Shown: positions 6,251 through 24,625, counted from the stretch's first letter. The stretch is DNA of 47,141 nucleotides from Nitrososphaeraceae archaeon (GCA_009377575.1 WHTU01000022.1:1-47141), one strand, 5' to 3'. Notes: a model not told the origin generated them from the sequence alone. A program made the numbers and translations.

Positions 6251-6488
6251 ACTACTAAACTGAGGTCTTTCATATCGATTATCGTTCGAGTCGATAATAT
6301 TTCTTAACGAAGAATTCTAGAGTGATACCATATCACAATAGTTGGATTACCAATATTAGTATGAGCAAAGCAATCAAGAAACTAACTTCCTTGGGGAACA
6401 GACTTCGGAAATGATTTCAGGGAAATCCCTTTATTTGATTTGACAAGTGTTAAATAAAAGGATCCCATTAGATTTGATATAACGGCAC

Positions 6489-6743
6489 ATGAACAATCTC
6501 TTACAAAATAAACACAGCGACCTTGATACTACCAGAAATAATGAACGTTGTATATGTAATCCAGATAATATCACAGTCATTCCAATATATCATACCAACG
6601 ATAGTTTGTCCTATCAAGCATCTCGGTGTAACTATTGTAGAGAGGAATGGGCAGAGTATTGGATAAGTTATAAGTACATATTTTCTTCACTCATATATCA
6701 ATATCAACACCTACATCAGGGTAAAGCAATACACGTTAGTTAA
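6489..6743 (+). CDS. Small CxxC protein, paralogue A
   Basis: An 84-residue protein with CIC near the middle and SRCNYCREEW, a zinc-ribbon-like half, after it. It is clearly related to the protein at 19814-20113. Both share PDNIT-IP-YH--DSL, then SRCNYC-REW-E-W-SY and a Gln-rich end. Two short Cys pairs suggest one zinc site. Its role is unknown; conservation of two copies 13 kb apart suggests a real family rather than a chance ORF. Confidence 0.6.
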   Translation: MNNLLQNKHSDLDTTRNNERCICNPDNITVIPIYHTNDSLSYQASRCNYCREEWAEYWISYKYIFSSLIYQYQHLHQGKAIHVS

Positions 6744-8375: not shown

Positions 8376-8981
8376 TTACCGAGATGGTCTTTCCTCATTT
8401 TCTATTATTTCACAATTATTCAGAGCATAATCCCCTTCAGAAGAATTAAAATCATCTATGCTATCTCTTCCAGGTCCGCAGTCAAAATAGTCTGCTCCTT
8501 CTCCGCCGGAGAGAACATCATCTCCTGCTCCCCCATAAAGTGAGTCTATCCCGGGTCCTCCTTGGATAAAGTCCCCCCCATCATTGCCATATATCACATC
8601 ACTTCCAGGCCCCCCACTAAGGTGATCGCTGCTACTGGAACCCTGAATTTCATCATTACCATAATCTCCATAGATAAATTCACTCATATCGTCTTGACTT
8701 ACCTGTACTTCTTCTGGTGCCACTGCCACTCCCATATGACCTGTTTGAATATTATTACTGCCCTCGCTCATATTGCTTATCAGCAAGTCATCATACATAG
8801 TTCCACGTGTCATTGCCAAAACGCTGTTGTTATTAGATAAAATGCCAATTGATACTGCTCCAATAAGAGTAAAACAAAGTAGCCCAAAGCCACGAAGTGA
8901 GGATAGCGACATTTTGTTGGCACCGTTTCCATTTTTATGCTCTATGGATCTTGGTCTTGATAACATCAGATCATATATCAA
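8376..8981 (-). CDS. Secreted RTX-type calcium-binding repeat protein
   Basis: A 201-residue protein. A hydrophobic signal/anchor (about 28-55) is followed by a linker and then a run of GGxGxDxxx nonapeptides from about residue 105: SGGPGSDVI, YGNDGGDFI, QGGPGIDSL, YGGAGDDVL, SGGEGADYF. These form calcium-binding parallel beta-rolls in hemolysin-type proteins. A Cys pair (FDCGPG and NNCEI) closes the domain. The ATG at 8981 was kept as start; the Met just before the hydrophobic part (MSLSSLRGFG) is an alternative. Probably a surface or exported structural protein; no catalytic domain is visible. Confidence 0.8.
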   Translation of the reverse strand: MIYDLMLSRPRSIEHKNGNGANKMSLSSLRGFGLLCFTLIGAVSIGILSNNNSVLAMTRGTMYDDLLISNMSEGSNNIQTGHMGVAVAPEEVQVSQDDMSEFIYGDYGNDEIQGSSSSDHLSGGPGSDVIYGNDGGDFIQGGPGIDSLYGGAGDDVLSGGEGADYFDCGPGRDSIDDFNSSEGDYALNNCEIIENEERPSR

Positions 8982-14407: not shown

Positions 14408-14552
14408 ACCTTTTCTCTAAAATCTGTGGAAGTTAAATAGCTTATCTCAATGTTTCTCCCTAAAAAATTTGGGTTCTTATTTTTATATCATATTTATGTA
14501 GGAGACAACTGACAGTCGAATCTTTAAATCACTCGTAAAGAAACTGGCCAAA

Positions 14553-14590
14553 GGTAGACGGCCTGGTGACTAAGCATGGACCGTCCTACC
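14553..14590 (+). ncRNA. Bulged GGTAG hairpin C
   Basis: GGTAGACGG at 14553 pairs with CCGTCCTACC ending at 14590. It resembles hairpins A and B at 17.4-17.6 kb (GGTAGG-A-CG... stems) but uses different inner pairs (ACGG/CCGT instead of CGACC/GGTCG), so pairing is kept while the sequence changes. A half copy, AAGGTAGGCGGCCG, follows at about 14659. Whether it is transcribed cannot be seen. Confidence 0.45.
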
Positions 14591-14886
14591 TTTTCATATT
14601 TTATTCCACCAAAAAGAATTTTTATCTCATTATACATAATAAATACATAATGTCCTCAAGGTAGGCGGCCGCTTTGTGTTTCCAACACCATACAGCAGGA
14701 ACCTAATCTATCCTTATTATGATGCCTGGGATCTGGTCAGAGAAAAGGTTTCAATTTGTCGAATAAGTATATCGCATATTGAATTCCCTAAAAAGAAAGT
14801 CTGAGGTTGCATATTAGCCATAAAAAATGAGATAATAAGCGCAGGTACTATACAAAACTACCTAACCAATATAATATTAGTGACTA

Positions 14887-15284
14887 CTACTGCATGGCAG
14901 TTGCTTCTATTTCCACCATTAACTCGGGAAAGGTAATCTGTTTACTTCGAGAAGCGTCATTGCGGGACTGCACTTTGCATGTGAAAGTCTAATAACTGTT
15001 CGTTCGTATGCTGAGATGAGTTTGTTTACATCTGTTGTATATATGGTCATGCGAACTATATCGGACAGTGAAAAGTCCGCTTTTCGAAGCACTTCTTCTA
15101 GGTTATCTAATGCCATCTTCAGCTGAGCACCAATGTCGTTTGGATACGCAGCTTTCCCTTCGGCGTCAATGGCCGTCTACCCGGAGCAGAGAAGAGTTTT
15201 ATTGACGTTGCTGATTTCGATTGCCTGCACGAACCCATATCTATCCTGCCAATTCCAGGGATTTATTATTCGTCGTTCTACCAT
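14887..15284 (-). pseudogene. RidA/YjgF-family enamine deaminase, broken
   Basis: Reading from the ATG at 15284: MVERRIINPWNWQDRYGF, ...LLCSG, then an in-frame TAG where the family has Gln (CSGQTA). The frame continues through AIDAEGKAAYPNDIGAQL, DIVRMTIYTTDV and CSPAMTLLEV. A frameshift near the end then moves the terminal FPELMVEIEATAMQ into another frame, with a stop at 14887-14889. Both breaks hit conserved positions, so this is a recent pseudogene. By family it hydrolysed reactive enamines/imines from amino-acid metabolism. Confidence 0.8.
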
Positions 15285-15778
15285 AGCACTCCTGGAGTAG
15301 CTTATGTATTTAAAGTATTCAAAGAGTATAGAAAAATCCGTATCTAAATTCAGAACTTTTATCTTGGATGATTTAATACGGTTTTGATTCATGGTTTCTG
15401 ATACGTTAACGATTAAATCTCCTACAGAAAAGCAGATAATAAATGAGATGATGTGGGTTGAGGAATTTTACGGATAATCCAAGAACGTTGAGAGTATAAG
15501 ATATATAATAATAATCTATAACGGATAAAGAAGTATTTTGAACAAGGTCGCAGGATAGCTAACAATCGAGAAGTATCCAACTAACAAGATCATAATCGAA
15601 TTTCCTACCATCACAATTTCCTTCACTTATTTTCTACCTTTAGAAAATTAAATTTCCTGGAGTTTGTGTGGAAAATTCTTCTTTAGCCCTCCGTCTTCTT
15701 CTAACAAGATATCTGATATGGGATATTTGATATTATACAGAATATCATATCATCACTAATCCCAATATCATATTCCTG
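15285..15778. other. Intergenic region, no gene seen
   Basis: About 490 bases between the RidA remnant and the cupredoxin gene. It has several GATAT/ATATC repeats near 15709-15770 with weak dyad symmetry, and no supported coding frame. Confidence 0.35.
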
Positions 15779-16204
15779 CTACTGCACGATGATTTTACCT
15801 TTCATGTCTTGGGGATGAAGCGAACAATAGTATTCATAAACCCCCGGTTCCGCCGTGATTGTCGTCTTGAATTCTTCATCCTTGTTGAGAATCCCTGAGT
15901 CAATTTTTAAGCTCTCTACATTAATATCATGTGGAGTAGAATCCTTATTTACTAATACAAGTTCTTGTGGAATATTCGCTTTCAGGTTAATATCTGGATT
16001 GGTGCCATTGAATGCTCGATCCTGTGAAACTATGAGTACACCACTATCGACATTTAGGGCATCAACTTCTCTTTGTTGTTCTAAAGATTGTTGCTGCTGT
16101 CTCTCAGATTCTCGTCCATCTGAGCTAAATATTATTGCTACAGTCATAACCGTTCCTGCAACAATTATCAAAGTAATAAACAAGCTAATTATGATCTTTA
16201 GCAT
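15779..16204 (-). CDS. Membrane-anchored cupredoxin (blue-copper-like)
   Basis: A 141-residue protein. An N-terminal membrane anchor (about 4-26) and a Gln-rich linker precede a plastocyanin-like domain (about 55-141). The type 1 copper ligands are visible: His92 in TPHDIN, then Cys127, His130 and Met134 in YYCSLHPQDM. Thaumarchaea encode many such proteins as electron carriers at the outer face of the membrane. It is a single gene whose start lies 66 bases before the 260-bp repeat copy at 16270. Confidence 0.87.
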   Translation of the reverse strand: MLKIIISLFITLIIVAGTVMTVAIIFSSDGRESERQQQQSLEQQREVDALNVDSGVLIVSQDRAFNGTNPDINLKANIPQELVLVNKDSTPHDINVESLKIDSGILNKDEEFKTTITAEPGVYEYYCSLHPQDMKGKIIVQ

Positions 16205-16269
16205 CTATATCAATTCACCTTCCTTTGCTGCAATTTTTATCAGATCTCTTGTCTTTTGGTTTATCGTAC

Positions 16270-16526
16270 CTACCATTGCTTTGATTCGGTAGAAGTTTGA
16301 TTTTATGGCCTTTTCAAAAAAGTTCTCCCCAGAATTTGTAATCCTCACTAATATCATGAGAAGATGACATTAGTAACTGAAACATTACAATACGTTCTAG
16401 TGATTGCTCTAAGCCATAAGATAAAATGTAAAGGGGACATTATTTGAGCACGATAATGTCCCTTTTCGGGACATTATATGGCGTCATTGATCTAGCGTAA
16501 AAGCTGTTCCCATCGGTGTTAGTGAT
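16270..16526. repeat. 260-bp direct repeat, copy 1
   Basis: From CTACCATTGCTTTGATTCGG to CGGTGTTAGTGAT this matches 24364-24625 in the same orientation, with scattered substitutions and small indels (roughly 85% by eye). It contains the dyad GGACATTAT/ATAATGTCC and a third GGACATTAT. The start has CTACC...GGTAG symmetry. Both copies begin 65-70 bases upstream of a minus-strand gene (cupredoxin here, ASCH there) and have primase-type sequence on the other side. Confidence 0.8.
16435..16477. promoter_or_regulatory. GGACATTAT dyad plus third half-site
   Basis: GGACATTAT, a nine-base spacer TTGAGCACG, and the exact reverse complement ATAATGTCC (16435-16461), followed by a direct GGACATTAT at 16469. 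Related dyads lie at 24525, 23867 and 23759. It looks like an operator, replication or integration site. Confidence 0.6.
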
Positions 16527-16628
16527 GACAACATCAAAGTTGGAGAGGATTCAGAGATATCCCAGTTGAAGAAGTCAAAAGGATTATGAAAGAAAATATA
16601 ATACTATTAAGGCATTTCTGGCAGATAT

Positions 16629-16829
16629 GTGCCATATAATTTAGGCGCACTTGATTACGTTACTCCATCCCGGGTATTATATGATGAGTGTAAGGATTAC
16701 TGCAAACAAAGAAGAGAAAGACCACTCGACGCGAATATTTTTGGGATGGAATTAAAAAAAGTAGGGATTGAAAGGAATCGATCAAGAACTCATGGCGTTG
16801 GGGAATATTCTTATCTCGGAGTGGCATAA
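16629..16829 (+). pseudogene. Primase/helicase C-terminal domain remnant
   Basis: A 66-residue frame, LGALDYVTPSRVLYDECKDY, CKQRRERPLDANIFGMELKK, then GIERNRSRTHG. The pattern (helix, Y--YC----PL---FG--L---G, then R-R--G---Y-G) is that of the winged-helix tail of D5/P4-type replicative primases of viruses and plasmids. The catalytic parts are missing, so this is the leftover end of a replication gene from a lost element. It sits directly after copy 1 of the 260-bp repeat. Confidence 0.55.
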
Positions 16830-16867
16830 GAAATTTTGGGGTCTTTGGAGCCCATCCTTTAAAAGAT

Positions 16868-17035
16868 ATGGCCACTGGCGCTATAATCGATATTGAGCCC
16901 GCCGAGGCCGAGTGGACGCTTTGGATTCTAAAATTGCTACTTGATCACTACGTAATACGTCCGGTAGAATCAAAGAAAATGAAAGATAAGGTAAATTCTA
17001 AACTAAGGGCTGCTAATAGACCTGAGATGAAATAA
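16868..17035 (+). CDS. 55-residue hypothetical protein
   Basis: An ATG-to-TAA frame encoding MATGAIIDIEPAEAEWTLWI, a hydrophobic helix and a basic tail (SKKMKDKVNSKLRAANR). The composition and codon usage look coding. It follows the primase remnant by 38 bases on the same strand, so it may be another survivor of the same element. No family recognised. Confidence 0.45.
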   Translation: MATGAIIDIEPAEAEWTLWILKLLLDHYVIRPVESKKMKDKVNSKLRAANRPEMK

Positions 17036-17068
17036 ATCGCGAAACTGGTCACCAATAAAGACCTTTCT

Positions 17069-17215
17069 GGGCTGCCAACGGCCCACAAATGGTTAAGATA
17101 GTAAAACTTTTACAGCTAATTACTTGTATTATGTACTTAAGAGATTGTCTCTTTCTCCTGTAGAGGAAGTGTCTGTTTGTAATAATGGAACAAACTCGTT
17201 AACTGCTGGAGAGGT
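17069..17215 (-). repeat. 148-bp structured repeat, copy 2 (inverse of 7921)
   Basis: On the minus strand it reads ACCTCTCCAGCAGTTAA..., ...TAATACAAGTA..., and ends in TGGGC-loop-GCCCA. Compared with copy 1 at 7921-8068 the middle hairpin is rebuilt with other bases (CCT-CTAC-AGG) and the terminal loop differs, while the GGGC/GCCC stem is kept. Substitutions that preserve pairing favour a functional RNA structure. Confidence 0.65.
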
Positions 17216-17366
17216 TGTCTAATCAGCCTCCTCCTAGCCATTCCTGCCTGTTAGCGTTACCAGAACCTGCTGAAACTGGCGCCTACCTTTTGGTTTTACG
17301 GTATAGGTTTGTATTATATGGTATTATAGACTATAAATTACTTTTCCATTAATTATGAAAGAAAGA

Positions 17367-17413
17367 TAGGACGACCCAAAATGAATCGACTCAGAATACA
17401 TGGGTCGCCTACC
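17367..17413 (+). ncRNA. Bulged GGTAGG hairpin A
   Basis: TAGG-A-CGACCCA at 17367-17378 pairs with TGGGTCGCCTA at 17401-17411; only one A is bulged. The stem is 11 bp with a 22-base loop. The same stem with the same bulged A occurs in hairpin B, 170 bases downstream. A TATA-like CTATAAATTA ends about 30 bases upstream, so a short transcript starting at the stem is plausible. Confidence 0.5.
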
Positions 17414-17539
17414 TATGCAGTCCAGCTAATGTCTACAACAATAGCAATGGTTTGGACCGCAGTTGCATCATTACAAATATAATATAAAAAAGTTGAGGGA
17501 GTAGGCATATTTGTTATACCGAAACATATTAGGGAAAAA

Positions 17540-17591
17540 GGTAGGACGACCTATCATGGATGATAGGCGTAGAATTTATGGGTCGCCTACC
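17540..17591 (+). ncRNA. Bulged GGTAGG hairpin B with inner stem
   Basis: GGTAGG-A-CGACC at 17540 pairs with GGTCGCCTACC ending at 17591, an 11-bp stem with one bulged A. Inside, CCTATCA-TGGA-TGATAGG (17550-17567) forms a perfect 7-bp hairpin. It shares the outer stem with A, but the loops differ completely. Confidence 0.5.
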
Positions 17592-18006
17592 TTAATGCTT
17601 CACGCAGATGCTTGCTTCTGTCTATAGTAGCAGTACGTCTGTGTATTGCGACTACATTTTCCACAAACTATAAAAAAAGAGAAGCAGGACTGAAAGTAAT
17701 GCTTTACAATAAATTTATGAGCTTATAGACTGAAAAGATCTAGTAAAACTACCACAGTACGATTTCTTTTGAATGAATTAAGCTACAGTCTACCCATAAC
17801 CATAAAGCAACATGACCCCTTCCTTCTTTCCCAAATGGTTTGATTGCTTTATATGTATTTCTGAAATTTAGGCCTAGAAAAAAAAATCAAATATGCTTAT
17901 GGAATATGAGATAATGTCTGCAACCATAGCTTTATCGCAAAGTTAACAGGGTCATAATGACATTTAGAATTCTTATATATTTGATACCACCATATTTACT
18001 AGGTTT

Positions 18007-19813: not shown

Positions 19814-20113
19814 ATGAGAAATATGGTAAATGTAACGATGGCTGGATGTGGCAATGTAACTGGTGCTATGATTAATGAATGCGATGCATGTATCCCAGAT
19901 AATATAACGATCATCCCAAACTATCATATCAGTGATAGCTTAACCGATCAAGTATCACGATGTAATTACTGTGGGAGAGAATGGAATGAGTTCTGGGTTA
20001 GCTATTCGCATGTAACTTTATCGTTGATAAATCAGAGACAGAGACAACTCAAAAGAGGTAGAATATATGTGGCTACAGATGACAAGGATAGCCTATTAAT
20101 AGGACAACATTAA
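19814..20113 (+). CDS. Small CxxC protein, paralogue B
   Basis: A 99-residue protein related to 6489-6743: CDACIPDNITIIPNYHISDS and SRCNYCGREWNEFWVSY are the matching blocks. CDAC and CNYC form two CxxC knuckles, so a single zinc site with four Cys is likely. Paralogue A has CIC in place of the first knuckle. The C-terminus here is longer and basic. I would expect a small nucleic-acid-binding or regulatory protein, but no function can be shown. The start could also be the Met at residue 4 or 9. Confidence 0.62.
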   Translation: MRNMVNVTMAGCGNVTGAMINECDACIPDNITIIPNYHISDSLTDQVSRCNYCGREWNEFWVSYSHVTLSLINQRQRQLKRGRIYVATDDKDSLLIGQH

Positions 20114-24295: not shown

Positions 24296-24363
24296 TCTAA
24301 ATCCTATTTTTAGTAAGAGAATAGTGACTACATAAAGCTATGGTGTGTGAGTCCTGGTATTAT

Positions 24364-24625
24364 CTACCATTGCTTTGATTCGGTAGAAGTTTGGATTTTA
24401 CGGTTTTTTCAAAAAAAAAGTTCTAGAATTTGTATCCTAACTAATATCATGAGAAGGCGATATTAACAACTGAAACATTACAATACGTTCGTGATTACTC
24501 TAAGCCATAAGAAAAAATGTAAAGGGACATTATTTAAGCGTGATAATGTCCTCATTCGGGACATTATATGGCATCATTGACATCATTGATCTTGGGTAAA
24601 AGCTGTTCCCACCGGTGTTATTGAT
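24364..24625. repeat. 260-bp direct repeat, copy 2
   Basis: Matches 16270-16526 along its length, from CTACCATTGCTTTGATTCGG to CGGTGTTATTGAT. The dyad at 24525-24551 keeps GGACATTAT/ATAATGTCC, but the spacer has changed to TTAAGCGTG. Its right end lies 258 bases from the stop codon of the primase-helicase gene. Confidence 0.8.

Follow-up and report, generated by a model that had tools for sequence, protein, structure and literature searches.

Cuckoo RNAs fold into two stem-loops with pyrimidine-rich single-stranded loops, which carry a fixed C-rich motif resembling an anti-Shine-Dalgarno sequence, and REP elements carry a GTAG motif. The cuckoo or CcsR small RNAs of alphaproteobacteria are named in PMC10253847, which cites Reinkensmeier and Giegerich 2015. 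In archaea, intergenic trans-encoded small RNAs are described for Methanosarcina mazei and Haloferax volcanii, and an archaeal Lsm protein binds some trans-encoded small RNAs in Haloferax (PMC3432209). According to PMC3110155, a betaproteobacterial repeat element of ~90 bp, linked to the bprJ small RNAs, overlaps expressed small RNAs and occurs in several copies at one locus.

We analyzed a window of 47,141 nucleotides, which is contig C144 in the draft genome of a soil ammonia-oxidising Nitrososphaeraceae archaeon (380 contigs totaling 3.89 Mb, 99% complete). In it, a sequence-only reading had singled out three hairpins, A, B and C, which could be an undescribed archaeal small RNA family, a bound operator or a miniature mobile element. 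Among these options the small RNA family is the best supported, on account of the wobble asymmetry, the covariation, the promoter and T-run, the bounded conservation and the lack of a match in Rfam. The best explanation overall, to which we assign a probability of roughly 0.7, is that the copies represent tandem multicopy small-RNA genes, in which the 3΄ stem is conserved and the loop variable and pyrimidine-rich, and whose products would act in trans. Judging from the sequences, it is highly probable that short non-coding RNA genes make up this multicopy family and that the hairpins are their 3΄ ends.

Like the cuckoo or CcsR RNAs, the family consists of tandem, multicopy and related small RNAs; however, CcsR RNAs are bacterial and arise by processing of a single operon that includes a DUF1127 protein gene. 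In the present family every unit has a promoter box of its own, and the copy number is much higher. Membership in the cuckoo/CcsR group was rejected because a fixed loop motif is absent: the loops of the present family are variable and its stem sequence is fixed. An integron attC site was also rejected, since the RYYYAAC and GTTRRRY core boxes are absent and the arms are GGTAGG and CCTACC. The family resembles the archaeal trans-encoded RNAs in being intergenic and short, but the literature searched, including the available sections of PMC3432209, reports no high-copy family with a shared hairpin, whereas here one stem occurs ~45 times per genome. It shares with REP/RAYT and MITE-like repeats the form of short intergenic palindromes in many copies, but differs in that the GTAG lies inside the stem, no Y1 transposase was found, a promoter box and a T-run belong to the unit, and wobble pairs are biased toward an RNA strand. 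The bprJ-linked repeat is likewise a repeated intergenic element, but it is bacterial, reaches a maximum of 29 copies and has some of them within coding sequences, and the accessible part of PMC3110155 describes neither stem covariation nor promoter linkage for it.

The places given earlier for hairpins A (17367), B (17540) and C (14553) were correct, as was the 11-bp stem with a single bulged A that A and B share on the plus strand; on the minus strand, probably that of the RNA, this base is a bulged U. Read in this orientation, A and B are two tandem candidate units on the minus strand, and C is a single candidate unit on the plus strand. Scores below refer to the covariance model R2, built from 49 oriented copies, which followed a model from ten copies (R1). 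Hairpin A, the 3΄ stem-loop of predicted small RNA A, extends from 17365 to 17413 on the minus strand (45.4 bits on that strand; RNA folding z –4.5), where it reads GGTAGGCGACCC...GGGTCGTCCTATC. A terminator-like T-run, TTTCTT, follows it at 17359 to 17364 on the same strand, in keeping with the T enrichment just 3΄ of the hairpins across copies. The TATA-like box TTTTTTATA (17483 to 17491, minus strand) falls in a conserved alignment block and is consistent with a TATA peak 80–89 nt upstream; with a start placed ~25 nt after it, the predicted small RNA A would run from ~17460 to 17359 on the minus strand (folding z –5.8). Hairpin B, the corresponding 3΄ stem-loop of predicted small RNA B, lies at 17540 to 17591 on the minus strand (43.3 bits on that strand; z –5.3), and its additional inner stem, CCTATCA/TGATAGG, is indeed perfect. 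It is followed in sequence by the T-run TTTTTC (17534 to 17539, minus strand) and preceded by the TATA-like box TTTTTTTATA (17669 to 17678, minus strand), recognized in the alignments; the putative RNA would span ~17645 to 17534 on the minus strand (z –3.7).

Hairpin C, at 14553 to 14590 on the plus strand (33.5 bits on plus, 28.6 on minus; z –3.7), retains the outer pairs GGTAG/CTACC and has ACGG/CCGT as its inner pairs, as had been noticed. It would be the 3΄ stem-loop of a predicted small RNA C running from ~14512 to 14596 on the plus strand (z –2.6), with both ends estimated. On this strand it is followed by a TTTT run at 14591 to 14594 and preceded by the TATA-like box TTTTTATA at 14480 to 14487, whose promoter and leader repeat elsewhere: the segment from 14479 to 14539 recurs with 81% identity at G000:C320:22556-22616, and the leader motif CTTTAAATCACTC (14522 to 14534, plus strand) is, by sequence comparison, common to other copies (L092, L048 and L163). 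Loop composition had suggested the minus strand for hairpin C, which was ruled out, as the covariance model, the T-run and the leader homology all indicate plus. TATA-like stretches, previously reported for two of the hairpins, are present in all three, although those of A and B lie on the minus strand. The description of the loops as unrelated needs correction: they are not wholly unrelated, since when oriented they are pyrimidine-rich (mean 0.62) and some can be aligned.

Several other elements were observed in the window. Lone half-arms, AGGTAGGCGGCC and GGCGCCTACCTTTT, occur at 14659–14670 and 17276–17291 with no partner nearby, and are perhaps decayed members of the family. A dispersed repeat at 17676–17793, directly upstream of the promoter of small RNA B, has 85–87% identity to G000:C345:7393-7508 and G002:C18:1332-1442. 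A direct repeat of 84% identity, unrelated to the hairpins, recurs ~8 kb apart (16267–16526 and 24361–24625), and a further dispersed repeat family is found at 6484–6719 and 19888–20005, with copies at L038:9754-9907 and L040:5522-5740 and 8735-8978. An L-PSP/RidA-like gene at 14919–15392 is seemingly frame-broken, with pieces in different frames, and is possibly a pseudogene.

We determined the size of the family in the draft genome and found ~45 distinct places with the two covariance models (E ≤ 0.05), many of them clustered 90–300 bp apart. A purpose-written hairpin finder gave 76 matches compared with 1 in the reversed control in 242 kb of loci chosen because copies were present, and a plain pattern applied to the whole genome gave 16 places compared with 4 in its reversed control. 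The hairpins are a dispersed intergenic family, far above chance. Further copies, expected in relatives if the family is real, were matched by R2 in each of the five genomes from the genus, whereas 56 sampled genomes from other genera of Nitrososphaeraceae gave no match; R1 gave the same distribution among 36 relatives. An exact-pattern scan of ~85,000 prokaryote genomes gave matches in TH526, TH5895, TH5896 and plot3_rep3_bin15, all four of them Nitrososphaerales, and in a single Acidimicrobiia MAG, the latter probably by chance. Rfam 15, searched at both thresholds, gave no match above the curated score in the window (a single match in the A/B region was at chance level), a tRNA and tmRNA scan of the window found none, and the family is not described in the open-access literature searched. 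Genes neighboring the copies have no common function (GNAT, CHRD, M23 peptidase, PNPOx and unknowns). Copy number and distribution are thus supported by sequence comparison, as is the conserved unit of promoter and hairpin described below.

Alignment of copies with their flanks indicated a conserved unit of ~150 nt that extends beyond the hairpin alone. Among related copies the mean identity was 0.90–0.92 in the arms and 0.81 in the loop; upstream it was 0.79–0.83 in the first 60 nt, 0.74 at 60–110 nt and 0.55 beyond –110 nt, and downstream it was 0.82 over the first 10 nt, declining to 0.64 past +60 nt. TATA-like words peaked 80–89 nt upstream of the hairpins, and the T fraction directly after the hairpin was 0.8 across copies, some of which have weak T-runs. 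Two main promoter types were distinguished. One is the box GTTCCGGAANNNCTTTTATG; in the other, CTTTTTTATAATTTGTTGTG precedes a leader stem-loop, which often reads GCAGTAC-N6-GTACTGC. A genome search for the promoter boxes, run blind to the hairpin, provided an independent test. All eight GTTCCGGAANNNCTTTTATG boxes with at most two mismatches were followed by a GGTAG-type hairpin, the distance from box start to hairpin being 65–80 nt for seven and 149 nt for one (GATAG); boxes with three mismatches, 12 of 14 of which had no such hairpin downstream, were at control level and were not used. The second type of box gave 14 matches compared with 1 in the control, and most were followed by a hairpin. 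On the basis of these patterns, the units appear to possess their own promoter and terminator. The predicted RNAs also appear to be non-coding: ORFs with a minimum length of 120 aa cover 42% of the loci of 36 hairpins in the archaeon's own genome, yet contain none of these hairpins, and no excess of small ORFs was found in the predicted RNAs.

Since the copies are nearly palindromic, their strand has to be inferred. When they were oriented by loop pyrimidine content, a T-run lay downstream in 54 copies compared with 8 in the mirror image, and stem mispairs were G-U rather than A-C at a ratio of 53:18 (P = 4e-5, close relatives removed), whereas orientation by the T-run only gave 49:15 (P = 2e-5). 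These P values are optimistic, because relatedness among the copies makes the wobble and covariation events partly dependent on one another; the loci were selected for containing copies. The G-U excess appeared alike in mispairs derived from A-T (18:2) and from C-G (21:10), so that a simple C-to-T strand bias is insufficient as an explanation. Among 49 aligned copies, from loci selected in the same way, 87.6% of stem cells pair, two-sided stem changes numbered 29 compared with 15.9 in shuffles, and the covariation score was higher than in 500 of 500 shuffles. Compensation, on which the proposal of a selected structure had been made to depend, was seen between species, GGTAGG/CCTACC in L050 being replaced by GATAGG/CCTATC at the corresponding site in L088. 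Strongly altered inner stems among the hairpins downstream of the searched boxes, such as GGTAGTAGCGATCAG with CGGTCGCACTACT and GATAGGAATAGTCGCCAGG with CCTGGTTATATTTCCTATC, still pair, which is what the sequence-only reading had seen in hairpin C. These comparisons support selection on the stem at the RNA level and, as read from the alignments, a conserved RNA secondary structure with compensatory change. A possible pairing between CAGAA in the leader and UUCUG in the loop was observed in group 2, and is too short to claim.

We infer transcription, the start and end sites, promoter function and the action of the predicted RNAs from the arrangement of these elements. Each unit has a predicted promoter box of the TATA type, a leader usually folding into a stem-loop of its own, the conserved hairpin and often a U-run that probably ends transcription, giving a predicted RNA of ~85–130 nt; the units are intergenic and either single or head-to-tail. 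The stem, GGUAGG-CGACC / GGUCG-U-CCUACC, closes a variable pyrimidine-rich loop. In the model, the uniform stem would serve as a shared handle for protein binding or stability, and the variable single-stranded loops could base-pair with purine-rich stretches of target mRNAs. As the likeliest action we propose, though only tentatively, that the multicopy RNAs are trans-acting regulators of this kind, with the stem as handle and the loops pairing with mRNAs. The main alternative is that the RNAs are decoys, or sponges, for an RNA-binding protein that recognizes the GGUAGG stem and leaves the loops free to vary. This would account for a stem uniform over ~45 copies with variable loops, and genus-specific stems would fit coevolution with one protein; however, among related copies the loops are better conserved (0.81) than the outer flanks (0.55–0.64) and are pyrimidine-rich, which suggests that the loops matter too, and we regard the decoy as unlikely.

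Further explanations were considered. If the unit were a non-autonomous mobile palindrome, REP- or MITE-like and copied by a transposase, its structure would matter as DNA and any RNA would be incidental. The dispersed, intergenic, tandem and inverted copies, the copying of arrays without flanking genes and the restriction to one lineage would be expected of such an element, but a Pfam search of the own draft genome found no Y1 (REP-associated) transposase, PF01797, whereas the same search found it in 5 of 14 control genomes. In addition, the arms are conserved while the loops diverge, the G-U/A-C asymmetry requires an RNA strand, each unit has a promoter box and many have a T-run, and several copies have stayed at matching positions from one species to another (L050, L083 and L088), with compensated changes. 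No counterpart of the A/B array stands at the same place in the other four genomes of the genus, which indicates that some arrays move or arise quickly, and pieces of the array recur elsewhere, so that copies do spread. Target-site duplications were not seen at the copies, whose edges are too vague for a firm test, and A/B gave no same-place empty site. The mobile element of the sequence-only reading survives as an account of copy spread, whereas the missing Y1 transposase and the several copies at conserved places speak against it, and as a whole it is quite improbable. The hairpins might instead be only intrinsic terminators of short or unknown transcripts, as the T-run directly adjoining the stem would suggest. 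In archaea, the main known requirement for termination is a U-tract and not a stem, which disfavors this explanation, and the conservation of the stem in sequence as well as pairing, the similar conservation of leader and promoter, and the many copies in divergent intergenic regions make it very unlikely. Least credible is a palindromic operator in the DNA to which a dimeric regulator would bind: the palindromic arms have a fixed core sequence and lie upstream of some genes, but their spacing varies from ~14 to 35 nt, the promoter box stands at a fixed distance on one side only, and the strand-specific wobble, unexpected in a DNA site, disfavors the operator that had been suggested.

Tandem multicopy small-RNA genes thus remain the preferred reading, and related arrangements were sought in other genera. 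The second type of promoter box occurs in other genera of the family in 1–3 copies each, and almost never in the control. In the sister genus g6, a conserved hairpin of another kind, CTGATGGGCC...GGCCCATCAG, whose loop is variable, lies downstream of most boxes of this type; these hairpins stand in tandem in one contig, and most copies lack a clear T-run. A strict scan for this stem gave 4 matches in a 189-kb sample of one g6 genome and a further 5 at other g6 loci; reversed sequence gave 0, and 184 kb from the window's genus gave 1, the pattern being one of few copies and a single sampled genome. On the strand defined by the box, wobble mispairs of the g6 hairpins, read by eye, are mostly G-U. 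The box with such hairpins was observed at loci of G018, G055 and G009 (L195, L196, L171, L180, L173 and L182), and the hairpin density in the one sampled genome is roughly comparable to that of the window's family. Because the same box precedes another hairpin in g6, the promoter-hairpin architecture seems to predate the genus, with a stem sequence that is genus-specific. In genus g11 (L174, L175, L183 and L184), a similar box starts a repeated AT-rich leader near contig ends, without a GGTAG-type hairpin; it may be the edge of another repeat and is not counted as support.

RNA regulation in soil ammonia-oxidising archaea is little known. According to a recent metagenome study (PMC12625717), which uses TH5896 as a genus name, the genus including TH5896 is the most abundant Nitrososphaeraceae genus in the floodplain sediments it sampled, and it is probably the genus of the window's archaeon. 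If expressed, the family would provide dozens of sibling RNAs per cell with one handle and many loops, which would place it with the largest families of small RNAs in archaea. Existing soil metatranscriptomes would allow a direct test by means of the promoter boxes and covariance models. Since the sister genus has a different stem, one may ask what constrains ~45 copies to a single stem. It is a doubtful possibility, suggested by the sequence patterns, that Nitrososphaeraceae possess many small-RNA genes with one shared promoter type, a genus-specific stem (GGUAGGCGACC in one genus, CUGAUGGGCC in another) as a lineage-specific handle, probably with a dedicated protein, and individual targeting loops. 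If true, such a family-wide system would constitute a large post-transcriptional network in soil ammonia-oxidising archaea.
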